From contig CP087563.1 of assembly GCA_020974905.1 (NCBI GenBank), positions 6,510,001 to 6,574,000 of the forward strand: DNA of 64,000 bases. The letters are read 5' to 3'. The position numbers and the translations under genes were made by a program. Below the pieces are notes generated by a model that did no database searches, was not told the DNA's origin, and saw only the letters and a program-made list of their open reading frames with translations. The stretch is from Planctomycetes bacterium syqfu. GTDB taxonomy: Bacteria > Planctomycetota > Phycisphaerae > Phycisphaerales > Phycisphaeraceae. This document shows, piece by piece, positions 8,671 through 37,286 of the stretch (position 1 is the stretch's first letter; every line of letters starts with the position of its first letter).

Positions 8671-8848
8671 TTGCAAACTCCCTTAATGACTTGGGGGAAT
8701 CCCTTTTGCCCGACATGAGAGTAAGGCTTCAGCATGAGTCTGCGGTTATCTGGCAGTTACTTTTGGATGCGCATCCAGTGAGTTTATGATGAAATAGGTT
8801 TGGATTTTGATCGTACAAGAACGGTGAGGTTTGCGATCAAGAATGTGA

Positions 8849-24366: not shown

Positions 24367-25776
24367 ATGTCTTTGTCTCCCAATATCATTTTGCTCGTTG
24401 GAGAAGATACCGGTCGACATCAACATTGCTACGGCGATCCCTATGCTCATACGCCCAATCTTGATCGGCTTGCTTCAGAAGGTTGTTTGTACACCAATGC
24501 CTGTTCCACCGCGCCGGTGTGTGCGCCTTCGCGTTCGACTTTGATCATGGGGCAGTTTGCAAACAAGATGGGTTCGCATCACATGCGTTCGACATTGCTC
24601 AACCCGCCACGCCTGTTCACGCATGAATTGGCGGACGCCGGCTACCATGTGAACTGGGCTAACAAGACCGACTTTAACTTTGAACCGCCGGATGATTTTG
24701 CACACGAAACCACCGACTGGATTCGTGATCTGGAGATGGGGAAATTCCCTTCCGACAAGCCGTTTTTCTACTACTACAACTTCGGCATGACCCATGAAAG
24801 CGGGATGTGGCCGGAGACCTCAACCAGTAATCCATACACACTCGGTGAAGAACCCTGCGTTGATCCCACACTCACCCAGGGCATTCCCGTCCCACCGTAT
24901 TTACCTGATACGTCTGAAGTGCGTAGTGAGTTGTATCGCTATTACCAGAAACTTAAAATGCAGGATCAGCAGATCGGTCGTGTGCTCGATGCACTGGATT
25001 TACACGGCTTATCCGAGAACACCATCGTCATCTATCTCACCGATCATGGGCGTGGGCAGGTCCGCGAAAAACGTTGGCTTTATGAAGCTGGCATCCATTT
25101 GCCATTAATTATTCGCGCTCCGGGTCTCACCGATCCCGGCAGTTTCTGCGAAGAGTTGGTCAGTTGGGTGGACATCGCACCAACACTGTTGTCGATGGCC
25201 AATATGCCGATTCCTGTGGACTACGATGGTCGTGTCATTCTGGGTGAGAAAAAGCAGCCCGAACCACCGTGCATCTTTGCAGCGCGTGATCGCATGGATG
25301 AATGTTTTGATCGTGTCCGTGCTGCACGCAGTCGACGGTTCCTGTATCTGAGAAATGACTTCCCGCAATTGCCCTGGGCTCAGCGCCTGCGATACATGGA
25401 AGTGATGCCAGCCACGCGACAGATTCGGCAAATGCATGTCGATGGGCAACTGCAATTTCCTGCTGATCTATTCATGCAATCAACCAAGCCTGCTGAAGAA
25501 CTCTACGATGTCGTGGCTGACCCGCATTGTGTGCACAATCTTGCAGACGATGAACGCTATGCAGATACACTTGCCAGTCATCGACAGGAAGTCTCCCAAT
25601 GGATCGATCGCATTGATGACAAAGGCTATCTCACCGAACGCGAGTTAATCGAGCGTGGCATTGTCCAGAATCGTTTGGATGATGAATATGCTTTGCGCGT
25701 TGAGCCATTGCCTGAACCAACGCGCATGGGCGGTCTCTATGATTCGCATCTCACCGAGCAGGATGTGACAGCGTGA
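24367..25776 (+). CDS. Sulfatase, type I (formylglycine dependent), no signal peptide
   Basis: A 469-residue arylsulfatase-superfamily enzyme that hydrolyses sulfate esters, probably on polysaccharide fragments. The active-site signature is CAPSRSTLIMGQ with Cys52, which is oxidised to formylglycine. Metal-site residues include NIILLVGEDTGRHQ near the N-terminus and YLTDHGRG in the middle. The C-terminal part has ELYDVVADPHCVHNLADD, typical of the SGSH-like subgroup. There is no signal peptide, so the enzyme appears cytoplasmic, unlike the secreted hydrolases elsewhere in the window. Maturation needs a formylglycine-generating enzyme, not seen here. The gene converges with another sulfatase across a 93-bp gap containing a palindromic repeat. 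Confidence 0.9.
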   Translation: MSLSPNIILLVGEDTGRHQHCYGDPYAHTPNLDRLASEGCLYTNACSTAPVCAPSRSTLIMGQFANKMGSHHMRSTLLNPPRLFTHELADAGYHVNWANKTDFNFEPPDDFAHETTDWIRDLEMGKFPSDKPFFYYYNFGMTHESGMWPETSTSNPYTLGEEPCVDPTLTQGIPVPPYLPDTSEVRSELYRYYQKLKMQDQQIGRVLDALDLHGLSENTIVIYLTDHGRGQVREKRWLYEAGIHLPLIIRAPGLTDPGSFCEELVSWVDIAPTLLSMANMPIPVDYDGRVILGEKKQPEPPCIFAARDRMDECFDRVRAARSRRFLYLRNDFPQLPWAQRLRYMEVMPATRQIRQMHVDGQLQFPADLFMQSTKPAEELYDVVADPHCVHNLADDERYADTLASHRQEVSQWIDRIDDKGYLTERELIERGIVQNRLDDEYALRVEPLPEPTRMGGLYDSHLTEQDVTA

Positions 25777-25869: not shown

Positions 25870-27285
25870 TCATCGCAGTAGCGCCTCTGACCCGGGTTTG
25901 AGTTCACGGCGCCAGGGTTCGTCTGCATTGTGTGGGTGGATCGTCTGGAAGTTGCGACCATCGGTTTGGGGTACGGTGACCTTGTCAAAAAACGTGGTCA
26001 AGGCAGCATCCATCTCGTTGATGGTCTCTTGATACTTTGCTTCATTGATGACGTTCTTCGTTTCGCGTGGGTCTTTTTCAAGATCATAAAACTCATCTTT
26101 GAAATGACCATTGGGGCCGGGATACCGACGAATGAGTTTGGCGCGATGACTGCGGATCATGCGTGCGTTGGCATACTCGCAGAATGCGTAGTCCCCCACG
26201 GGTTCGCTGCCATAGACGCGTTGTATGTCACCAAGCAGGTCAAGGAAACTGCTACCGGGTTGATATGGATCATCCGACGCTTCAAGTCCTGCAGCTTCAA
26301 GCAGTGTTTCATGCAGATCACAATGGCTTGCAAAAAAGTCGTGCGATTTCCCTGCTGAAATCCGCTCGGGCCAACGCATCAGGCAGGGGACGATGATCGA
26401 CTCATCAATAAAGTTCTGAGGCGTGGTGCTGTTACCCTTCAGCCACATCCCGTGATGACCGTTGTTGTGACCGTGGTCGGATGTGTAGACGATCAAGGTG
26501 TCATCGAGAATCTGCTGCGAGTCCAGTTCATCTAGCAGTCGCCCAAGGTGTTCATCAATCACACAGACACCTGCAGCGTAGGCAGCCAACTCATCGCGAC
26601 GTTCGTCCCCGGTTTTGTCCGGCCACTTCGTCCAGCCATGACAGTTGGGGAAGTCTTCTGCCGGGGCACTGGGGACACCATGTTTACGGTACCAGTTTTC
26701 CAGGCGACGCGGCTTGCCGGAGAAGGGCGAGTGCGTATCGGTGTAACCGACATACATGAAAAAAGGCTTGTTTTGTGGGCGAATCTGCAGAAAGTCGATT
26801 GCAGCATCGGTGGTGATCCCCGGTTGATGGCCATGCAGCTCGTGAACTTGTTTGCCATCACAGTAGGGTTGTGACCCGTAGCGCGCGTTCGTGCCGTCTG
26901 CAACAAACCATGTATCGAAACCATTGGGCTTGATCCACGGGTAATGACAATGCCACTTGCCAAAGGCTCCGGTTTGATAGCCCCCGTTCTGGAGATGCTC
27001 AGCGAGATTCGGTAGGTGTCCAATCCCCGGGTGTTTGTCCATGATGCTGCGTTCGTTGATCCAATCGTGAATGCCATGTCCTGATGGATAACGCCCCGTC
27101 CAGAAGCTGGCTCTTGCTGGCGAACACACCGGGCAGGGGGTGTAAGCACGATTGAGCTTGGCACCCTCGTCAGCAAGAAACTGCATCGACGGTGTATGTA
27201 ACTCGGATGCGCCATAGGGTGAGGATGCCCACTGACCATGATCGTCGGTGATCAGTACGAGGACGTTCGGCGCTTTGGCATGCAT
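25870..27285 (-). CDS. Sulfatase, type I (formylglycine dependent), no signal peptide
   Basis: A 471-residue sulfatase. VLVLITDDHGQWASS gives the paired Asp metal ligands. The signature CPVCSPARASFWTGR holds the formylglycine Cys near residue 54. GAFGKWHCH and VYTSDHGHNNGHHGMWLKGN give the Lys-His and Asp-His metal and substrate residues. The C-terminus has EFYDLEKDPRETKNVI. It differs from the neighbour sulfatase in subgroup (CSPAR rather than CAPSR), so the two probably act on different sulfate positions. No signal peptide is seen, so the location is cytoplasmic by sequence. ATG 27285 is the family-like start. The pair is convergent, not an operon, so each needs its own promoter. Confidence 0.92.
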   Translation of the reverse strand: MHAKAPNVLVLITDDHGQWASSPYGASELHTPSMQFLADEGAKLNRAYTPCPVCSPARASFWTGRYPSGHGIHDWINERSIMDKHPGIGHLPNLAEHLQNGGYQTGAFGKWHCHYPWIKPNGFDTWFVADGTNARYGSQPYCDGKQVHELHGHQPGITTDAAIDFLQIRPQNKPFFMYVGYTDTHSPFSGKPRRLENWYRKHGVPSAPAEDFPNCHGWTKWPDKTGDERRDELAAYAAGVCVIDEHLGRLLDELDSQQILDDTLIVYTSDHGHNNGHHGMWLKGNSTTPQNFIDESIIVPCLMRWPERISAGKSHDFFASHCDLHETLLEAAGLEASDDPYQPGSSFLDLLGDIQRVYGSEPVGDYAFCEYANARMIRSHRAKLIRRYPGPNGHFKDEFYDLEKDPRETKNVINEAKYQETINEMDAALTTFFDKVTVPQTDGRNFQTIHPHNADEPWRRELKPGSEALLR

Positions 27286-27862
27286 GAGAGAACTTTCTAT
27301 TCCGCTAGTAACAGGACATGATGGTGACCAAGTCTATTTTCAAACATACTCCAATGTTCAAATTTATGTCAAAGGAGCAGCACACATCACAGGATTGCGA
27401 CGCGCAATGAAACAAAGATCAAAATCAAAATGTCCATCATGAGGCATCCATATTGAATCGGCATGTGATGTCAGGATCGTGTTGTTGATCTTCGAAAAAG
27501 CACGGTAAAGTTCTGTATAACCACGGCTTTGGTGAATTGGAAAAATGCATGTCAGTAAAATAGTGATATAGCGATCTGACAATATTTCGGATTAGTAATA
27601 TGCCGGTCGGGGTATATACAGGTCGAGTAATATTCACAATTTACAGATAAAAAGATAAAAAAGTATGGAAACATACCAGGTCACTCATATAATCCAAACG
27701 GAATGAGAGAGCGTTCCATCAAGTCCGATCTCCGCCCGATTTGTTCTCCCGATGCTTGATGTTCCGAGCCCTCGCCTGTTGTGTCTTACGCTGCGTTTTT
27801 GTTGCAGTTTGTCCATTTGCGTATTCGTGCTTTCATCCAGCCACGGTTCTTTCAGGAGAGCG
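27286..27862. other. Intergenic, 577 bp, divergent promoters, no gene recognised
   Basis: Separates the sulfatase from the octaheme cytochrome operon. It is AT-rich, with purine-rich and A-rich tracts near 27650-27670. An in-frame ATG at 27752 could lengthen the cytochrome by 37 residues, but it has no ribosome binding site. No operator, repeat or structured RNA was recognised. Confidence 0.35.
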
Positions 27863-29821
27863 ATGATTATGAGAAGCGGTTCAAAGCGCGTTCGTCCGAA
27901 TCATGACGATCCACCTGTCCCCACTTCCTCGAATCACTCAGGCTTGCCCCGGTCCTCAAAGACTCCCTCGCCGATGAGGACCTATTTCAAACGTCTTGGT
28001 TTGATGGCGTTGGCAATGGGTTTGTTGTTGCTGCTCGCCGTTCCCAATGCCAACCTGGCGCAGACTACGGATGACAAATCGCAGGCACCTTCCAAGCCAA
28101 CAATTGAGCCGGTGACACCCGCCAATGCCCAGGTGATGGAAGCGGGGATGCTTGCTGATGACAATCCACCACCGACTGCAAGTACGGCCGATCACAGCAA
28201 ATTCCCCATTCTTCAGCAGGATTTTCAGTCCGGCCCGGAAGTCACCGCTGCCTGTCTGACCTGTCATACCAACGCTGCCAAGCAGTTGATGAAGACCAGT
28301 CACTGGACATGGATTTGCCCGCGCGCACGCCAGGAACTCGAAGACAAGCAGGGGCGCGAGGTTGGCAAAGGTGAACACATCATCAACAACTTCTGCATCG
28401 CACTGGGGGCCAACGAACCGCGGTGTACATCCTGTCATGCTGGTTATGGTTGGGAAGACAAGAACTTTGACTTCACCAATGAAACACTGGTGGACTGTCT
28501 GGTCTGTCACGATACCACCAAGTCCTACAAGAAATTTCCTGTCTCTGCAGGGCATCCGGTCTATGCCAAGGACTTTCCCAAGGGACGCGAATGGCCCAAG
28601 GGGTCGGGCAAAATCTGGCCTCCGGCGGACCTGAAAAACATCGCATTAAATGTCGGTAAACCCTCACGTCACAACTGTGGCACGTGTCACTTCTTCGGTG
28701 GTGGTGGCGAAGGTGTCAAGCATGGTGATATGGATGTGTCGCTTGCCATGCCCCATGAAGGTGTCGATGTACACATGAATGCAGCAGGACTCGACTTCAA
28801 ATGTACGCAGTGTCACACCACCATGGCGCACCAGGTCTCCGGCAGATGCTTCACGATTCCTGCATTGGAAGAAAAAGAATTCGCGTTGATGGGGCACGAA
28901 AGCAACAAGCTTTTGGCCTGTGAGTCCTGTCATGGCGAATTGCCTCACGAAAACAAAAAGCTCAACGATCACACCGATCGCGTCTCCTGTCAGACCTGTC
29001 ACATCCCCACGATGGCTCGCGAAAGACCGACCAAGATGTGGTGGGACTGGTCCAAGGCCGGCGAGAAATCACCCCAGGGTAAACCCATGGTCAAAAAGGG
29101 TGATGTCAAGGGTGCCACCGTTTCGACCTATGACACCAAGAAGGGCGAGTTCATCTGGGTGATGAACGAAACGCCTGAGTACATCTGGTTCAACGGCAAG
29201 ATGAAACACACCTTCATCGGTGATGTCATCGACGATCAAACACCGGCATCACAAGTCCCCGGTGTGATGAAGGGGCGCTTTGACAATCTGGACATGTCCA
29301 AGCCCATCGTGCGGATCAATATTCCTGGAGGGGATGCGACCGATCCGGAGGCACGGATCACGCCGGTGAAAATCCATCGTGGTAAACAGGTGTATGACAA
29401 GAAACGCAAGATTCTTGCTGTGCCCAAACTTTTCCCATCCGGTGAGAAGAAGGGCGAAGCCTACTGGAAGAGTTATGACTGGGATCGCGCGATCGTCGCG
29501 GGGATGGACTATATCGGCCAGGAATACAGCGGTGAGTATGACTTCATCCAAACCGAAATGGTCTGGCCGCTGGCTCACATGGTCCCGACCGCCAAGGACG
29601 CAGTGAGTTGTGCAGAGTGTCATACCGACAATGGCCGCCTGGCATCGATTCAGGGTGTCTACATGCCCGGGCGAGATCGTAATCCGATCATCGACTATGT
29701 CGGCTGGGGATTGGTTCTGCTGACGTTGGTCGGCGCGATGTTCCACGGCTTGATTCGAATGGTCACTGGCAATAAGCATGCATCCCAATCGCAATCCGAG
29801 AAGCAGGAGGCTGACCAATGA
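27863..29821 (+). CDS. Octaheme c-type cytochrome, tetrathionate reductase (OTR) family
   Basis: A 652-residue periplasmic protein. It has exactly eight CXXCH heme sites: CLTCH (near residue 131), CTSCH (188), CLVCH (212), CGTCH (272), CTQCH (314), CESCH (353), CQTCH (376) and CAECH (583). The spacing, including the long gap before the last heme, fits the octaheme tetrathionate reductase family. The N-terminus has a signal segment (LGLMALAMGLLLLLAVPNANLA). The C-terminus has a transmembrane anchor (YVGWGLVLLTLVGAMFHGLI) that the soluble Shewanella enzyme lacks, as far as I recall. AGGAG precedes ATG 27863, and ATG 27869 is equally possible. The stop overlaps the next gene by 4 bp. The family can reduce tetrathionate, nitrite or hydroxylamine in vitro, so the natural substrate is open. 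Confidence 0.9.
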   Translation: MIMRSGSKRVRPNHDDPPVPTSSNHSGLPRSSKTPSPMRTYFKRLGLMALAMGLLLLLAVPNANLAQTTDDKSQAPSKPTIEPVTPANAQVMEAGMLADDNPPPTASTADHSKFPILQQDFQSGPEVTAACLTCHTNAAKQLMKTSHWTWICPRARQELEDKQGREVGKGEHIINNFCIALGANEPRCTSCHAGYGWEDKNFDFTNETLVDCLVCHDTTKSYKKFPVSAGHPVYAKDFPKGREWPKGSGKIWPPADLKNIALNVGKPSRHNCGTCHFFGGGGEGVKHGDMDVSLAMPHEGVDVHMNAAGLDFKCTQCHTTMAHQVSGRCFTIPALEEKEFALMGHESNKLLACESCHGELPHENKKLNDHTDRVSCQTCHIPTMARERPTKMWWDWSKAGEKSPQGKPMVKKGDVKGATVSTYDTKKGEFIWVMNETPEYIWFNGKMKHTFIGDVIDDQTPASQVPGVMKGRFDNLDMSKPIVRINIPGGDATDPEARITPVKIHRGKQVYDKKRKILAVPKLFPSGEKKGEAYWKSYDWDRAIVAGMDYIGQEYSGEYDFIQTEMVWPLAHMVPTAKDAVSCAECHTDNGRLASIQGVYMPGRDRNPIIDYVGWGLVLLTLVGAMFHGLIRMVTGNKHASQSQSEKQEADQ

Positions 29822-30444
29822 AAAAGGTAATGGTCTATAAACGCTTTGAACGTTTCTGGCATTGGCTTCAGGCCTTGCTGATCATCCTGCTGGCGTTGAC
29901 GGGGTTTGATATCCACTACCCGCAGATCACCATCTTTGACTTTGCAACCGCGCACCTGATCCACAAGTTCTGCGCCTGGGCGTTTATCGTTCTCGTCGCC
30001 TTTGCCATCTTCTGGCACTTCACCACCGGGGAGTGGCGGCAGTACATCCCAACCAAACAATACGTCGGAGACATGGTGCAGTTCTACCTCGTGGGCATCT
30101 TCAAAAACGCACCACACCCGGTTAAGAAAACACTGCTCAGCAAGCTCAACCCGTTACAGCGGCTGGTCTATCTGGGGCTGAAAATTCTCATCATCCCCGT
30201 CATGGTCACCACCGGTCTGATGCTGATTTTTTACAACGAACTGATTGCTGCTGGCTACGGGATTTCACTGGGTGTGCTTGCCACGATTCACACCATCGGC
30301 GCATTGACCTTGATGGTCTTCCTTGCAGGTCACATTTATCTCATCACCACCGGCCACACGCCCGCTTCCAATCTCAAAGCCATGATCACCGGCTATGAGG
30401 AGTTGGAAGAGGATGACGAATTACCGAACCCTAAAACCGTTTGA
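29818..30444 (+). CDS. Cytochrome b subunit, membrane quinol-oxidising partner
   Basis: A 208-residue integral membrane protein with four hydrophobic helices: HWLQALLIILLALTGFDI, FCAWAFIVLVAFAIFWHF, LGLKILIIPVMVTTGLMLIF and LATIHTIGALTLMVFLAGHIYLI in shortened form. His residues in helices 1, 2 and 4 (ERFWHW, FWHF, HTIG, GHIY) match the b-heme ligands of the cytochrome b561 / formate dehydrogenase gamma family. Its ATG overlaps the TGA of the octaheme gene (ATGA), which implies translational coupling. It most likely takes electrons from quinol and passes them to the octaheme protein. That topology makes a terminal reductase more likely than an oxidase. Confidence 0.88.
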   Translation: MKKVMVYKRFERFWHWLQALLIILLALTGFDIHYPQITIFDFATAHLIHKFCAWAFIVLVAFAIFWHFTTGEWRQYIPTKQYVGDMVQFYLVGIFKNAPHPVKKTLLSKLNPLQRLVYLGLKILIIPVMVTTGLMLIFYNELIAAGYGISLGVLATIHTIGALTLMVFLAGHIYLITTGHTPASNLKAMITGYEELEEDDELPNPKTV

Positions 30445-30517
30445 ACATGCCCGTTGACTGGATGCCCGTTTCATCATCGCATCTGACATAACGTCCCTTT
30501 TTGAGAGGAAAAGTTTG

Positions 30518-31969
30518 ATGTTTAAGTCCACACTACTGACCACACTTGTCCTATGCCTGTGTTGCACCGGTTTACAGGCACAGCAAACCGATGGGGAAGT
30601 CTGTGAAGTCAAACCTAAGAAAGCCAAGCCTGCAAGCGCCTGGCCCAAGAATGCGAAGTTGCGATTTGTCGAAGACTACAGCCATGTTGCCGACGCCAAG
30701 CCGCGTGATGTCTTTGATTCACTGAAGCACATCTCGCTGGGGGACGACCCGGATTGGTATGTGAGCTTCGGCGGTCAGGCACGTCTGCGCTTTGAACATT
30801 ACGAAAACTTTAACTTCGGTCGCCCAGCCTCCAACGATGACGGCTACCTGCTGCAACGCTACTTCCTGCATGCTGATCTTCACATGGGTAAGCTCTTTCG
30901 CATCTTCGCTGAGATGCGCTCCGCCTGGGCAACCGACTGGGGCTTGACCAATCCAACCGCGCCGCATCCCACGGGATATCACGATGAATTTGACATCATG
31001 AATCTCTTTGGTGAATTTAACTTTGACCTTTCCGAAGATATCAACACCACCATCCGTGCAGGGCGTTGGGAAATGAACTACGGCATGGGGCGCATGATCG
31101 GCTGTCGTGACTGGTCGCAAACCCGTCGCCCGTTTGATGGTGCGAGTATCCGCCTTGCCAACGGCAAGAATTGGATCGACGGCTTCTGGGCCAAGTGGGT
31201 TGAGATTCAACAGTACGAAGCCTTCAACTCCAGTGACGAAGATATCGCCAGCTGGGGGGTGTATGCTCATCTTGCCAAGGGCACGCTGCCTTTTAACACC
31301 GAGCTTTACCTACTGGGTAAGGATAACACCACCGGCAGCAAAGACGATCATCGTATTTCCACGGGACTTCGTTTCTTCGGTGATATCGCCAAAACCAATT
31401 TCACGTTTGACATCGAAGGTGCTTACCAATTCGACTATGAGGGTACGGATGTTCAAGCCGGTTTCTTTGCAGCAGAACTCACCTACAATTTCAAGCAATA
31501 CGACACCAAGCCCTGGATCACCGTCGGATTTGATTGGGCCTCGGGCGATGACAACCTGTCCGATGGCACGATCAAAACCTTCGAGCCGGTCACCGCGTTT
31601 GGTCACTACTATTTTGGCTACATCGATCAGATCGGCAGACAGAATATTCTCAGCCCGTGGCTTCGTGTCGGTTGCAAGCCAACCAAGAAACTCACCACCT
31701 TCGTCGAAGGCCATTGGTTCTGGGCAGACGAATCAGCGGACGGCATTTACAGCCCCTGTAACTGCACCAAGGTCATGCGTGGTGGCAACAGTAACGCCGA
31801 CAGCTACATCGGCTTTGAACTGGACCTCGTTGCCAAGTACAAGCTCGATCACCACACCATGATCATGGCTGGTTACAGCTATCTCTGGGCAGGTGACTAC
31901 GTGGATGATACCGGTGCAGGCACCAATGACATTCAGCGGTTCTACGTGCAGTTCCAATTCAATTTCTGA
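30518..31969 (+). CDS. Outer-membrane beta-barrel porin, alginate-export family
   Basis: A 483-residue protein with a signal peptide (MFKSTLLTTLVLCLCCTGLQAQ) and alternating hydrophobic strands through to a C-terminal Phe (YVQFQFNF), the outer-membrane barrel signature. Strand patterns such as WYVSFGGQARLRFEHYENF, TTIRAGRWEMNYGMGRMIG and FVEGHWFW are those of the AlgE-like alginate-export family. It probably forms an anion or organic-solute channel. It follows the cytochrome genes by 73 bp, with GAGAGG before ATG 30518, and a terminator closes the unit. The arrangement suggests the barrel admits the electron acceptor to the periplasm; that is inference. A TTG one codon upstream is less likely. 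Confidence 0.85.
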   Translation: MFKSTLLTTLVLCLCCTGLQAQQTDGEVCEVKPKKAKPASAWPKNAKLRFVEDYSHVADAKPRDVFDSLKHISLGDDPDWYVSFGGQARLRFEHYENFNFGRPASNDDGYLLQRYFLHADLHMGKLFRIFAEMRSAWATDWGLTNPTAPHPTGYHDEFDIMNLFGEFNFDLSEDINTTIRAGRWEMNYGMGRMIGCRDWSQTRRPFDGASIRLANGKNWIDGFWAKWVEIQQYEAFNSSDEDIASWGVYAHLAKGTLPFNTELYLLGKDNTTGSKDDHRISTGLRFFGDIAKTNFTFDIEGAYQFDYEGTDVQAGFFAAELTYNFKQYDTKPWITVGFDWASGDDNLSDGTIKTFEPVTAFGHYYFGYIDQIGRQNILSPWLRVGCKPTKKLTTFVEGHWFWADESADGIYSPCNCTKVMRGGNSNADSYIGFELDLVAKYKLDHHTMIMAGYSYLWAGDYVDDTGAGTNDIQRFYVQFQFNF

Positions 31970-32014
31970 TTCGCGCACGCCACGCCAATCAACTTGACCA
32001 AAACACAAAGGCGA

Positions 32015-32054
32015 GAAAAGCCCCACCCGATGCTGGATGACGGTGGGGCTTTTC
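32015..32054 (+). terminator. Rho-independent terminator after the cytochrome-porin operon
   Basis: GAAAAGCCCCACC and GGTGGGGCTTTTC form a 13-bp perfect stem whose 3' arm ends in TTTTC. Confidence 0.88.
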
Positions 32055-32125
32055 GTTGCGCCAGGATTAAATACTTTTATGATCACTCATGAGCAACGAT
32101 CGCTGCGATGATCAATACGGTTAAA

Positions 32126-32441: not shown

Positions 32442-33614
32442 TTACTCTGCCAACGCGCCGGTGGGTTGGTTGGCTGAGCGAACGGGTTGAAGCGGTAAAC
32501 TCGCGGCGTCGATCTCATCCCAATTCACGCCATCGCTCAGACGCTTGCCAACTTCAACGAGCGTGGCATGATCCGTCGGATCAATCGAGCCATCAGGCAT
32601 CGGGCCGGTGTTCAAAAGCACCTTGGCATTAAGCTGACGGGCATAGGCATAACAGCGCAACACGTCATCGACATTGCGGTGTTCACCATCGTTGTACTTG
32701 TTGTAACCCCAGACACGAGGTTGCAAGGTTTCGCAGATTTCCCAAGGTTTGTCGCGGTTTTTCTCCCATGCTTTGCGTGCACTCTCACCGGCTTTGCCTT
32801 TGAGTTTTTCGGATAAGTCGCTGGCAGCACGCTCCGGCGCTGCATAGTCCTCATCACCGTTGGCACCTTGCTTAAACGAGATCAAACACTGTGGCTGAAG
32901 ACTACGGATCAACGCATAGGTCTCTTCAATTGGGAACAGATCCGGGCGGCTGTGATATGCCGTGATCGGGTCAAACCACAGACCTGCAATGGGGCCGTAC
33001 TGGGTGAGTAGTTCATGCAATTGAGCATGGACAAAATCCATGTAATGACAGAAGTCCGCGTCCTTCTCCCAGCGATATCGCGGGTCGAGTTGGTCGTAGG
33101 CTGGTTGTGCAGGCTCCCAGAAAATCCGTGGGTAAAAGTAGGGATGCTGCCAATCCGCAGCGTAGGAGTAATAGAGAAACAAGCCGATTTTCTTGCGTTC
33201 ACATGCTGTCGCCAACTCCGCGACAAGGTCTCGGCCACAGGGCGCTTTGACGGAATTGAAGTCCGACTGCTTGGTGTTAAATAAGCTGAAACCTTCGTGA
33301 TGTCGGGTGGTGAAGGTGATGTACTGCATGTCTGCTGCAAGGGCGAGATCTGTGATGACATCCGCATCAAAATTTTCTGCGGTGAACTTGTCCATGAGTT
33401 TGGCATATTGTGTAAACGGGATTTTCTCATGGAACATCGCCCACTCACCATGCCCGTGCACGCTGTAAAGTCCGTAGTGAAGAAACAGGCCATAGCGCGC
33501 CTGTTTGAACCACTGGAGCGTTGCTTGTCTTGGTTTGGTTGCGTAGAGCGATTCATAGCCATGGAGAAACGATGGAGTAGACTGCTGTTGGGTTTGATTG
33601 GGCGATGGGTTCAT
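32442..33614 (-). CDS. GH29-family alpha-L-fucosidase
   Basis: A 390-residue enzyme that releases L-fucose from the ends of glycans. GH29 landmarks in order: WFKQARYGLFLHYGLYS at the start of the barrel, EKIPFTQYAKLMDKFTAENFD, YITFTTRHHEGFSLFNTK, and GLWFDPI with the Asp nucleophile near residue 215, where other members have WFDG. The later VLLNTGPMPDGSI is the conserved C-terminal barrel motif. The acid/base residue is not conserved in the family and cannot be placed. There is no signal peptide, so it appears cytoplasmic. ATG 33614 is used; no clear ribosome binding site precedes it. It is the last gene of the LacI/GH-A/prepilin/GH29 cassette. Confidence 0.9.
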   Translation of the reverse strand: MNPSPNQTQQQSTPSFLHGYESLYATKPRQATLQWFKQARYGLFLHYGLYSVHGHGEWAMFHEKIPFTQYAKLMDKFTAENFDADVITDLALAADMQYITFTTRHHEGFSLFNTKQSDFNSVKAPCGRDLVAELATACERKKIGLFLYYSYAADWQHPYFYPRIFWEPAQPAYDQLDPRYRWEKDADFCHYMDFVHAQLHELLTQYGPIAGLWFDPITAYHSRPDLFPIEETYALIRSLQPQCLISFKQGANGDEDYAAPERAASDLSEKLKGKAGESARKAWEKNRDKPWEICETLQPRVWGYNKYNDGEHRNVDDVLRCYAYARQLNAKVLLNTGPMPDGSIDPTDHATLVEVGKRLSDGVNWDEIDAASLPLQPVRSANQPTGALAE

Positions 33615-33654
33615 GATTGAAAACTCAAGGTTAAGGATTGGAACGGGAAACAAA

Positions 33655-34383
33655 TCATTGGTAAATATCACTGGCATTCAATGCATCTGCCGTGTAGTCG
33701 AAATTGCCATAATGCACATCGGCGAAATGGCCATCAGCATGAACGATGTTGGCTTGTCCATCTTCACTGGAAAAATGTCGGGCGGTGTATTGGTTGGATG
33801 CCGTCTGCGTGCCATCGGGATTGTTAAGGCTGTAGATCAGTTCATCACTGGCGTCGGCAAAGATCGGCCAAAGGTGCGGCTTAAGCAGGGCGCGGTGATA
33901 GAAGTAGGGGATTGCATCACTTTTCACACCCAGGCCATAAGTCGCGTTGTACTTACGAACCGGCAAAGCGCACATGGCGTAACCCATGGGTTTATCGTTA
34001 TGCGAAGTCGGCCAGGCGGTGTAAGGCGAATCTTCAGGACACGCAAGAATTTCAAAGTTAGCCAGGTAGTTGGCCCCTGCACCACCGTTCTGATCAATGC
34101 GAATACCATTGCCATAACCATGCCCCAGAAGTGCGTTGTACCAGAAACCGCGACTGTTGCTGCCTTCGGACCAGTTGCCCCATGACCTGACGTGTTGACC
34201 GTTATTGTCCTGCATATACAGCGTAAAACCCAAGTAAAGTTGTCGTTGCTGATTGACGCAGAGTATGTTGCGAGCCGCCTTTCGGGCACTGGCCAAAGCA
34301 GGCAGGAGAATGCTGATAAGCAGTGACACGATGGAGATCACCACGAGCAGCTCGATGAGCGTGAATCCGCGGGAATGTTTCAT
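33655..34383 (-). CDS. Prepilin-like secreted protein, copy 4, in GH29 cassette
   Basis: A 242-residue protein. The leader MKHSRG is followed by [12 protein letters not shown] and a helix ending [12 protein letters not shown]. The mature part has Cys (LACPED, MCALPV) and ends with [20 protein letters not shown], the His and DG motif of the family with a longer spacing than nine. ATG 34383 has AAGGA 8 nt upstream; the open frame extends 42 codons further without a leader. It lies 46 bp after the GH-A gene and 40 bp before the fucosidase, so it is almost certainly cotranscribed with both under the LacI-family regulator. The function is unknown. The N-terminus predicts cleavage by a PilD-type peptidase and assembly into, or release through, a pilin-type system. 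Confidence 0.88.
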
Positions 34384-34429
34384 GATCCATTTCCTTATGC
34401 AGGTTTGGATGAGAAGGTGGGGTGGATAC

Positions 34430-36193
34430 TCACGGTTTAAGAACGTCAACCGGTGATGCGCTTTGGATGTAAACCGGACTTTGGCTGATGGGTAGAACCA
34501 CCTTGCCATCCGTCGGCGTGAGGGTTTGTTTCACGCCCATGATGTCGGTCACGATGATGGGCGATGTGCAGTGAAGCTGAATGCTGTCCGCTTCGTTGAT
34601 GGTCCAGATCACATGACGGTCGGAGTTATCAGCGAAACTGACTTTGCTGACGAAGATGCCGTCGGTGGGATGGTTTTCCATCAGTTGGACTTGGGAAGCG
34701 CCGGCAAGTTGGCGTTGCATGACGGCATAACTCACCACCGCTGGCTTGGGCATGTAGTCATAATCCTGATTACGCAGAATGCCCAGACCTGCACCGAGGG
34801 TGTCATAAAACCGCCACCAGAAAAAGCGGTCCACACCTTGACTTCGTGCGATGACCATCGTGCGTACCAGCAGTTGAGCTTGCTGCTTTTCGGTAATCGC
34901 CTGATGCAGTGGCGGGGGGAAGGAGGGCAGGGTGTTGTAGCCTGACTCGGTGGACCAGATTTCACGGTGAAAACCGCTGAGTGTGCTGGGCATATTGTTG
35001 GTGACTTGCACGACACCGCGCAGGTCATCGGTCAGTGAATCCAGGCCGTAGCCTTTGGCCTTGGTCGTACCACCCATCTCGGGAATGGCTTGGGGGTAGC
35101 GGTAGGGATGGATGGCAACGATATCCATCATGGGGGCTGCACCTTGTTTGGCGACGACATCAATCCAATCATATTTCACGCCGGTAGTCCCCGCGATACT
35201 GATGCGTACCTTCGGATCAATCTCGCGAATGAGTTTGTATGTCTGCATGTAAAAGTCTGCATAACTCACCGGGTCACCGTTGGGCCACTGTCGAAAGCCG
35301 TTGGTCTCATTGAGTATTTCCCATGCATCGACTTTGCCTTGATAATGCGACGCCATCTGCTTGACGAATTTTTCCCAGTATGGCCACTTGGGAATCGGCT
35401 TACGCACAGGGACCGGCAACGTCTGATCAATCGGCTGGGCAGCAAAGTCGGGAGTTCCCATCAGGGTCATCATCACGTCGATGTCTGCATCGTCACAGGT
35501 TTTTATCAACCGATCCAATCGACGGAAATCAAGCGGTGCATCCACGTGTTCCTGCATCATGTCCCAATGGGTAAACACACGCAGCGAACGTACGCCCATG
35601 CGCTCAAGGATCGGCGCGTTGGTTTGCGTTAAGGGCGGAGTCGGTTGGAAAGCACCGAACGGCGCGCTGATCCCAAAGAAACGGTCGGGGTTGTCGCGTT
35701 TGACCGGTTCGGGGACGATGGCAAGGACCGCCCAGGTCGTGCCGAAGACATGCTTATTGCCGGAGATTGTATTGCCGACCAGCGAAACGGTGACGCGGAA
35801 CCAGCCGGTGTTCTGCGCTGCTGGCAGGTTGATATGCAGCATCATTGCCGGCCAGAGTCGCAGTTTTTTGTTGTAGGTCCACGTTGCAGGTTGGGTGTTC
35901 TGCAGAACCAACTTGCCATCAAAGTCGTGGACTTCATAGCGAAGATGCATCGTTTTAAGATCAAACTTTTTAAAGCTGATTTTGCCATGCCCAAGAATGC
36001 GGAAATTGAGCTTGATCTGTTCGTTGTCATAGAGCACCGTTTCGTGATGCGGTGTATCATGTCGCAGCATTGGGTCAGCATAGGGGGGCAGTGTTGGATC
36101 AGCTTGGGCCGATGCCATGATCACGCCATTGACAGCGATCATGGCAACCAATCCGAGAAGTAACGGTTTGATGGATGTCAGACATGCGGACAT
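34430..36193 (-). CDS. Secreted clan GH-A glycoside hydrolase (GH39/GH5-like)
   Basis: A 587-residue secreted enzyme. Signal peptide [20 protein letters not shown] with a cleavage site after ASA. Residues about 40-160 are a beta-rich domain. The TIM barrel follows: [27 protein letters not shown] with the acid/base Glu near residue 296, and [10 protein letters not shown] with the nucleophile Glu near 416. This pair fits clan GH-A. The family is nearest GH39 or a related xylosidase/galactosidase type, but I cannot fix it. ATG 36193 has AGGAG 7 nt upstream, which decides against an ATG eight codons earlier. The C-terminal 90 residues form a beta domain. It is the first hydrolase after the LacI gene. 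Confidence 0.8.
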
Positions 36194-36260
36194 ACGACAA
36201 CTCCTGCAAGGACACATGCGGTGTCTGCGTTAACACTAGTGATGAAAAACAAAGGTAAAA

Positions 36261-37286
36261 CTAGCCGGCAACCGGGCCGGTGGATTCTCGGATCACCAAG
36301 CGTGTCGGCAGCGGGGTTTCATTGCCCACTGCCACACTCCGATTTTGTTCCATACTCTGAATCACGTTGACGATTCGCTCGACCGCCAGCTTACCCATCT
36401 CCGATTGAGGTTGGGCGATGGAGGTCAGCGGGGGGTCACAAAATTCAGCCATATTCAAGTTCGAACACCCAATCACGGACAAATCAATGGGCGTGTTGAT
36501 GCCCATTGCACGTGCTGCACGGATGGCGGTCATGGCCATGTGATCGTTGGCACAGAACAATGCGGAAGGGCGATTTTTGCCAGAGAGTAATTGGTGAGTT
36601 GCATCAATCGTGGGTTTGATTTCATACTCACCGCAGGCTATGTTTTTAGCATACACCTTCAGGCCGACTTTCTTCATGGCTTGGCGAAAAGCAGCTTCGC
36701 GGACATGCGTGGAAATTGAATGCGGGTTACCGCCGATGTAACCGATGTTGCGATGTCCCAGTTGGTGCAGATGTTCGATGGCTTGCAGGATACCCGTCTG
36801 ATCATCACAACGAATGCTGATGAGCCCAGGTAACTCCGGTGGACCTCCCAGATGCGACACCGGCAGGTTGAGTTGACTGGTGATTTGCGCCAAGTCGCGC
36901 ATGCTCTGTTCATGGGATTCAGCACAGATCAGACCGCTCAGACATTGAGCCTGACATTGCGAAGCCAATGCTTTGGCATCGAACTGCCACTTGGTGCGGA
37001 TGATCTTGATCATGTATCCCATGGCATCGGCCTGTAGCGAAAGACCATCCATGAACATGGACAGATACTCGCTGGCAACGGATTGGGTGGCAAAGCCGAT
37101 GACCTTGGCTTTACCAGTGAAGATCGCCTGCGCCAAGGCATTGGGCTGATAGTTCATCTCCTTGGCAGCCTGCTGGATCTTGCGACGAGTCTTCTCATTG
37201 ACGGTTGGATTGTCCCGCAATGCCATCGACACCGTGGACTTGGCGTAACCCAGTGCGTCTGCGATTTGTTTGACCGTCGGATTCAT
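36261..37286 (-). CDS. LacI-family transcriptional regulator, GH29 cassette
   Basis: A 341-residue repressor. The N-terminal helix-turn-helix (VKQIADALGYAKSTVSMAL) and hinge (NYQPNALAQAIFTGKAKVIG) are typical. The periplasmic-binding-like domain follows with IEHLHQLGHRNIGYIGG and ALFCANDHMAM, and the C-terminus is PLPTRLVIRESTG. Its effector is probably a mono- or disaccharide from the cassette's substrate. AGGA lies 9 nt before ATG 37286. A perfect 16-bp palindrome at 37330-37345 lies 44 nt upstream of the start, the likely operator for autoregulation and control of the three genes downstream. The spacing between genes is small (67, 46 and 40 bp), consistent with one transcript. Confidence 0.93.
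   Translation of the reverse strand: MNPTVKQIADALGYAKSTVSMALRDNPTVNEKTRRKIQQAAKEMNYQPNALAQAIFTGKAKVIGFATQSVASEYLSMFMDGLSLQADAMGYMIKIIRTKWQFDAKALASQCQAQCLSGLICAESHEQSMRDLAQITSQLNLPVSHLGGPPELPGLISIRCDDQTGILQAIEHLHQLGHRNIGYIGGNPHSISTHVREAAFRQAMKKVGLKVYAKNIACGEYEIKPTIDATHQLLSGKNRPSALFCANDHMAMTAIRAARAMGINTPIDLSVIGCSNLNMAEFCDPPLTSIAQPQSEMGKLAVERIVNVIQSMEQNRSVAVGNETPLPTRLVIRESTGPVAG

Follow-up and report, generated by a model that had tools for sequence, protein, structure and literature searches.

Octaheme tetrathionate-reductase-family cytochromes c (OTR, family TIGR04315) are represented among described proteins by that of Shewanella oneidensis (SO4144, structure 1SP3). We examined a relative of it in a stretch of 64,000 nucleotides from Planctomycetes bacterium syqfu (G000:C1:6510001-6574000 in a genome of one contig of 7.38 Mb; this whole stretch is called the window), where positions 27863-31969 of the plus strand hold a module of three genes for an OTR, a cytochrome b561-type partner and an outer-membrane barrel. 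The Shewanella and window enzymes share eight CXXCH heme-binding motifs, the heme 2 lysine, the cysteine C64 and the whole core. The Shewanella protein is called soluble and periplasmic in PMC6449678, whereas the window OTR ends in a membrane helix and its gene is coupled to one for b561. The partner with which Shewanella OTR has been studied is STC (PMC4484225), in contrast to the b561 of the window.

Other described systems resemble other parts of the module. Otr and cytochrome b561 are clustered in Ignavibacteriae bacterium Ch128a and were read as quinone-linked at the membrane (PMC7509429); the otr-b561 pair is an ordinary unit and already in print; the part of that paper dealing with the cluster mentions no barrel, whereas the window has one. 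An OTR with selenocysteine (Sec) is likewise in print, as a single table row: in the table of a 2026 review (PMC13188914), TIGR04315 stands among the Sec families, represented by one GenBank-annotated accession and no motif. The window OTR belongs to the same family but has cysteine. No statement on the position of Sec in OTR, on a selenocysteine insertion sequence (SECIS), on its frequency or on repeated exchange was found in the literature of one open library. In the Geobacter ext cluster, the porin ExtI, the multiheme Sec cytochrome ExtKL and a b-type cytochrome occur together (PMC5877670). ExtKL is described there as a 5-heme protein, and NF040886 did not match the window OTR at 0.001. ExtI is likened there to phosphate-selective porins.

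A cysteine exchanged for selenocysteine

The window OTR gene (27863..29821, plus strand) contains a cysteine codon, TGC at 28394..28396, which homologue alignment places at C64 of the 1SP3 chain. It lies 10 residues before the first cysteine of the heme 2 motif (CXXCH, 28424..28438); homology to 1SP3 marks heme 2 as the active-site heme. Among 143 distinct homologues (153 aligned rows minus six of at most 380 residues and four duplicates), this position is Cys in 108 (TGC in 71, TGT in 37); another 34 have an in-frame TGA there, and the remaining one has Asp. The set is enriched for Sec because TGA genes were fetched on purpose. For each of the 34 Sec rows, the TGA at the Cys position is the sole in-frame TGA of the aligned stretch. 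The first locus set held five OTR frames interrupted by an in-frame stop, and in four of these the TGA takes the place of the cysteine of the motif NNFC. An unselected sample of 395 genomes from the phylum of Pseudodesulfovibrio gave 78 OTR above the cut-off in 69 genomes; 31 of them (30 genomes) have exactly one TGA, in every case at the Cys position.

Downstream of the TGA, a SECIS-like motif is present in 34/34 Sec rows compared with 1/108 Cys rows. This motif was written after the Sec rows had been seen, and a less circular test is given by perfect stems of at least six pairs, found in 32/34 Sec and 4/108 Cys rows. The hairpins are of two types, with loops AGGT, AGTT or GGC, and their stems start 16-20 nt past the first base of the TGA. 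Folding energies of Sec and Cys rows differ with a p of about 1e-13, which is only nominal given the kinship of the sequences, and folding is equally strong in some Cys genes. A search of four Sec loci against Rfam returned no SECIS family up to an E of 5, and the evidence for a SECIS therefore consists of folding, the motif and the comparison with Cys genes. With TGC at the Cys position and none of the Sec-gene hairpins behind it, the window gene does not encode a Sec-containing OTR.

The exchange has occurred repeatedly. At least five changes between Cys and Sec are needed on the tree, with starred branches forcing five, in quick trees (SH-aLRT only, LG+G4, with long-branch warnings). The minimum of five holds when the SECIS-coding stretch is masked (136/139 rows; four rows left out). 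One OTR gene from Desulfatitalea (L072, 4710-6398) has Cys (TGT) together with an intact SECIS-like hairpin; this is likely a fossil SECIS. Its sister in the tree, L157, is a Sec gene, which fits a recent Sec-to-Cys change.

The Sec machinery is distributed broadly in these genomes. Matches to tRNA-Sec were found in 27/30 Sec genomes versus 36/39 Cys-only genomes, and SelB in 28/30 versus 38/39. All 30 Sec genomes have a strong match to one or the other, and 25 have both; the machinery is a needed condition only, because nearly all Cys-only genomes have it too. The first tRNA-Sec search gave weak matches in all 14 controls, and in that search the L071 genome had no strong match (44.9 bits), yet SelB is present. 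SelB had no match at 1e-60 in the window genome or in that of L048 (Phycisphaerales UBA7800), its nearest named relative.

The position is probably catalytic, judging from the alignment, because it alternates between Cys and Sec and is lost along with the heme 2 motif in the Asp row (L044), where CXXCH is missing as well. Lower-scoring OTR-like paralogues (20 regions, 22 rows) have C in 16, U in two and another residue in four.

Several related observations are recorded here in their own right. Sec OTR loci were noted in sulfate reducers at L055 3079, L071 2858, L086 8211 and L093 8460, with 30 further. Two of the lower-scoring paralogues, L218 1600-3201 (plus strand) and L219 888-2999 (minus strand), likewise encode the position by TGA, but within a different sequence context (TYU and SYU). 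ExtKL was considered as the identity of these Sec paralogues and rejected: L218 matches TIGR04315 below the cut-off (197.9 bits) and not NF040886. The OTR of L048, the fifth of the interrupted frames, has an in-frame TGA at nt 8751. It was rejected as Sec since it replaces a conserved Trp, 106 alignment columns from the Cys position, in a genome with no SelB; it points to a broken gene or a sequence error.

The octaheme cytochrome and its membrane partner

A preliminary description of this region, made from the letters alone, had proposed an octaheme protein with a C-terminal membrane anchor, translationally coupled to a cytochrome b and followed by an alginate-export family barrel and a terminator. 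Each of these elements was recovered at 27863-31969, and the interpretation placed on them is supported in part. The OTR frame is open from 27752 to 29821. The start at 27863 is preceded by a Shine-Dalgarno-like AGGAGAG, and the N-region that follows it (MR..SKRV) is recognizable in L048. The protein has a signal peptide with a long N-region, eight CXXCH motifs and, downstream of heme 8, a hydrophobic helix that forms the C-terminal transmembrane anchor (29684..29770 by hydropathy; helix 571-614 in the AlphaFold2 (AF2) model). It scores 573.9 bits against TIGR04315 (cut-off 375) in a profile search, and 1SP3_A is its sole PDB sequence match at 0.001 (2.2e-116). The structure 1SP3 is also the best fold match of the AF2 model (E 1.5e-35, TMt 0.78) and the only one at 0.001. 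This model was built from the translation of 27974-29818 with 20 sequences and no hemes; its mean predicted local distance difference test (pLDDT) score of 66.3 means modest confidence, and it was not used for distances.

The predicted lysine ligand of the active-site heme can be followed in the same alignments. The lysine codon at 28718..28720 aligns pairwise with residue 153 of the 1SP3 chain, which we take to be the heme 2 ligand; the chain numbers 64 and 153 were counted by hand on this alignment. All 143 distinct homologues, the window included, have K here, and bis-His ligation, which the preliminary description had named as evidence against its proposal, finds no support at the level of sequence.

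The b561 gene (29818..30444) begins with an ATG at 29818 that overlaps the OTR stop TGA at 29819-29821, giving ATGA coupling. Its product matches PF01292 with 87.6 bits (cut-off 30.1), and the candidate heme ligands H15, H49, H158 and H172 are invariant over 116-119 rows. A search of the genome for PF00033 as an alternative cytochrome b found nothing, and a PDB sequence search with the b561 protein returned marginal matches only. A same-strand b561 domain lies behind otr in 109/143 homologues, and in a few cases it forms one protein with a seven-heme part; seven of the 34 loci without it had too little contig. In L033-L036 a seven-heme gene is inserted between OTR and b561. A second arrangement, in which OTR is followed by a seven-heme protein that in some cases is fused to b561, was noted in L033-L036, L045, L122, L124, L125 and L127.

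The occurrence of otr in the phylum of the window genome is patchy, because OTR exceeded the cut-off in 16/392 genomes, and those other than the window genome share its phylum only, with none from the same family, order or class. A contig scan for OTR relatives found 86, and the analysis used the best 80. In the quick tree, the window OTR falls in a clade of six rows with 100% SH-aLRT support, made up of five planctomycetes and one member of the Krumholzibacteriota.

The outer-membrane barrel

The third gene (30518..31969), for which the ATG at 30518 is a better start than the TTG at 30515 of the automatic call, encodes a protein of the Alginate_exp family PF13372 (220.9 bits, cut-off 25.2). 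Its predicted fold is that of AlgE: the AF2 model has a mean pLDDT of 74.5 and 18 long strands, and its best PDB match is 3rbh_A (E 1.1e-15). A PDB sequence search with the barrel gave no meaningful match. Since barrel and multiheme cytochrome share an operon, they might be thought to conduct electrons to the cell exterior as a porin-cytochrome conduit in which, as in MtrAB, the cytochrome sits inside the barrel, and an analogy with Geobacter ExtI/ExtKL could be drawn (PMC5877670). This we consider extremely improbable, given the AlgE-like model, the anchor helix of OTR and the lack of any further multiheme open reading frame (ORF) within 5-6 kb of OTR. An MtrB-type barrel with an embedded decaheme cytochrome, which characterizes Mtr/Pcc conduits, was not found.

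Transcription of the operon appears to end at a terminator-like hairpin at about 32014-32055 (plus strand), with a minimum free energy of -29.4 kcal/mol that none of 200 shuffles reached (mean -18.1, sd 2.7). The hairpin is absent from the plus-strand list of an automated terminator scan, and a folded hairpin of like sequence also trails the barrel of L048. Promoter-like sites in the window are no better than chance, with 3 found and 4.3 expected.

The barrel is as unusual in such an operon as had been suspected. Using a profile of 17 barrel sequences, it was found at the OTR locus of 2/143 homologues, the window and L048; the sequence reaches 2.2 kb or more past the OTR stop in only 90/143 loci, and a barrel could therefore be hidden in others. 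The proposal of a complete module from outer membrane to quinol pool thus stands for this lineage and not for the OTR family at large, and the barrel, nearly unlinked elsewhere, is shared with one close relative. Identity between L048 and the window is 71-92% for flanking proteins, 84% for b561 and 76% for the barrel. In L048 the trio lies across the conserved block 32851-37286 from its window position, with order and orientation kept.

Two sulfatases and an alpha-L-fucosidase (genes at 24367-25776, 25870-27285 and 32442-33677) flank the operon, and the barrel could instead be an oligosaccharide porin belonging to these genes that stands behind otr by chance. Such a role would suit a family named for alginate export, a model whose best match is AlgE, and a linkage common to only two close genomes. 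The nearest carbohydrate genes (25870-27285, 32442-33677), however, are on the opposite strand to the operon; the L048 trio remains intact despite its different placement, the barrel genes of the two genomes have similar hairpins behind them, and relatives of the barrel adjoin NapA in three genomes. A sugar porin is therefore, in our judgement, unlikely.

Relatives of the barrel occur in 186/392 genomes of the phylum, the next best at 40% identity, and loci were fetched for 12 of the 13 best. NapA adjoins the barrel in 3/12 of these loci: G319 and G337 (same order) and G359 (another family). These three barrels share fold and family with that of the window, at 34-40% identity, and likewise adjoin a periplasmic anion reductase, although the reductase differs. 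An acceptor-anion porin is consequently the best reading of the window barrel, which would serve as the entry pore. Neither Nap genes nor multiheme ORFs appeared at the other nine loci, among neighbours that were scanned only in part.

The NapA-adjoining loci (L234/L222 in G319, L231/L235 in G337, L233 in G359) differ in arrangement. In G337 the barrel comes after a gene for NapA (879.8 bits against NF010055, whose cut-off is 904) and genes resembling those of NapB and NapG, while the opposite strand carries genes for multiheme, Fe-S and NrfD proteins. In G319 the genes ahead of the barrel encode multiheme, Fe-S and NrfD-type (DsrP-like) proteins, and NapA (904.8 bits) and a NapB-like gene are on the opposite strand. 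In G359 NapA (958.2 bits) lies upstream on the same strand. The NapA-like gene of the window genome itself, at 6064786, scores 851 bits, below the TIGR01706 cut-off, and the 200 kb around it contain no match to PF13372. Near another barrel relative (L226 3559-6181, minus strand, G116) are genes for a histidine kinase of the protoglobin type and a sigma-54 response regulator.

Substrate and direction of the reaction

We consider it probable, though well short of certain, that the module respires tetrathionate or a similar S-S compound by means of a reductase anchored in the membrane, with the barrel as its entry and b561 and menaquinol as its electron source. The acceptor anion would enter the periplasm via the AlgE-type barrel and bind to OTR at heme 2 with its lysine ligand, and its S-S bond may there be attacked by the conserved Cys. 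By oxidizing menaquinol, b561 would pass electrons through its hemes and the OTR heme chain to heme 2, and thiosulfate would be released.

The substrate, left open in the preliminary description, can be narrowed. Repeated Cys/Sec exchange indicates that the Cys is functionally critical and favors S-S substrates such as tetrathionate over nitrite. For TsdA, an attack of the cysteine at the active-site heme on the central S-S bond of tetrathionate has been proposed (PMC5146829). The OTR relative BOGUAY_2386, assayed as purified protein, was faster with tetrathionate than with nitrite (PMC6449678), and otr transcripts of a marine acidobacterium were up 36-fold by day 8 with tetrathionate (PMC8528874). 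Together with the NrfA (PF02335, 521 bits) and NapA-like protein encoded elsewhere in the same genome, of which the former would serve nitrite, these observations make tetrathionate or a like compound the preferred substrate.

A nitrite or hydroxylamine reductase that forms ammonium at the same active site, with a structural or protective role for Cys/Sec, is given a small chance. It would agree with the reduction of both compounds by Shewanella OTR and with STC as its proposed feeder in nitrite reduction (PMC4484225), and with barrel relatives that adjoin NapA in 3/12 loci. The genome already has its strong NrfA match, and repeated Cys/Sec exchange beside the heme 2 motif is not expected for nitrite chemistry. 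NrfA is not known to have a residue like the Cys/Sec of OTR.

Reversal of the reaction, from thiosulfate to tetrathionate with electrons entering the quinone pool via b561, seems very unlikely. In its favor, OTR genes are present in phototrophic sulfur bacteria such as Chlorobium, and the direction of TsdA varies with the source organism (PMC5146829). Against it, the OTR assays in PMC4484225 and PMC6449678 are reductive, and the tetrathionate couple is put at +198 mV in PMC8528874. Electron transfer to menaquinone would then be uphill.

Several points weigh against a tetrathionate reductase with the barrel as its entry. Cys and Lys do not always go together: the Asp row L044 retains its Lys despite the loss of Cys and of the heme 2 motif, and of the four paralogue rows without Cys/Sec, three keep both Lys and heme 2 and one is without Lys. 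That the cysteine lines the active site of 1SP3 is an uncertain assumption. Linkage of barrel and otr is confined to two close genomes, and a barrel associated with Nap would suit nitrate or nitrite equally. The change in otr transcripts at day 1 was not significant (PMC8528874), Shewanella OTR accepts nitrite and hydroxylamine too (PMC4484225), and Caldithrix has Otr, although its growth tests gave no support for respiration of sulfur, polysulfide or thiosulfate (PMC5317091).

As a broader and more tentative idea, to which we would not give even chances, OTRs may be chalcogen enzymes in which a catalytic Cys/Sec nucleophile next to heme 2 and its lysine acts on S-S or Se-containing anions as the true substrates of the family, with the planctomycete AlgE-type barrel as an exchangeable acceptor gate that became joined to Nap as well as OTR operons.

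Significance

The residue that swaps between Cys and Sec provides a direct handle on the tetrathionate versus nitrite activity of OTR. ORF calling that treats TGA as a stop splits Sec-OTR genes, as it did here, and the enzyme may for this reason be undercounted in sulfate reducers. In the lineage of the window genome, the barrel suggests that entry of the acceptor through the outer membrane can belong to a respiratory operon.

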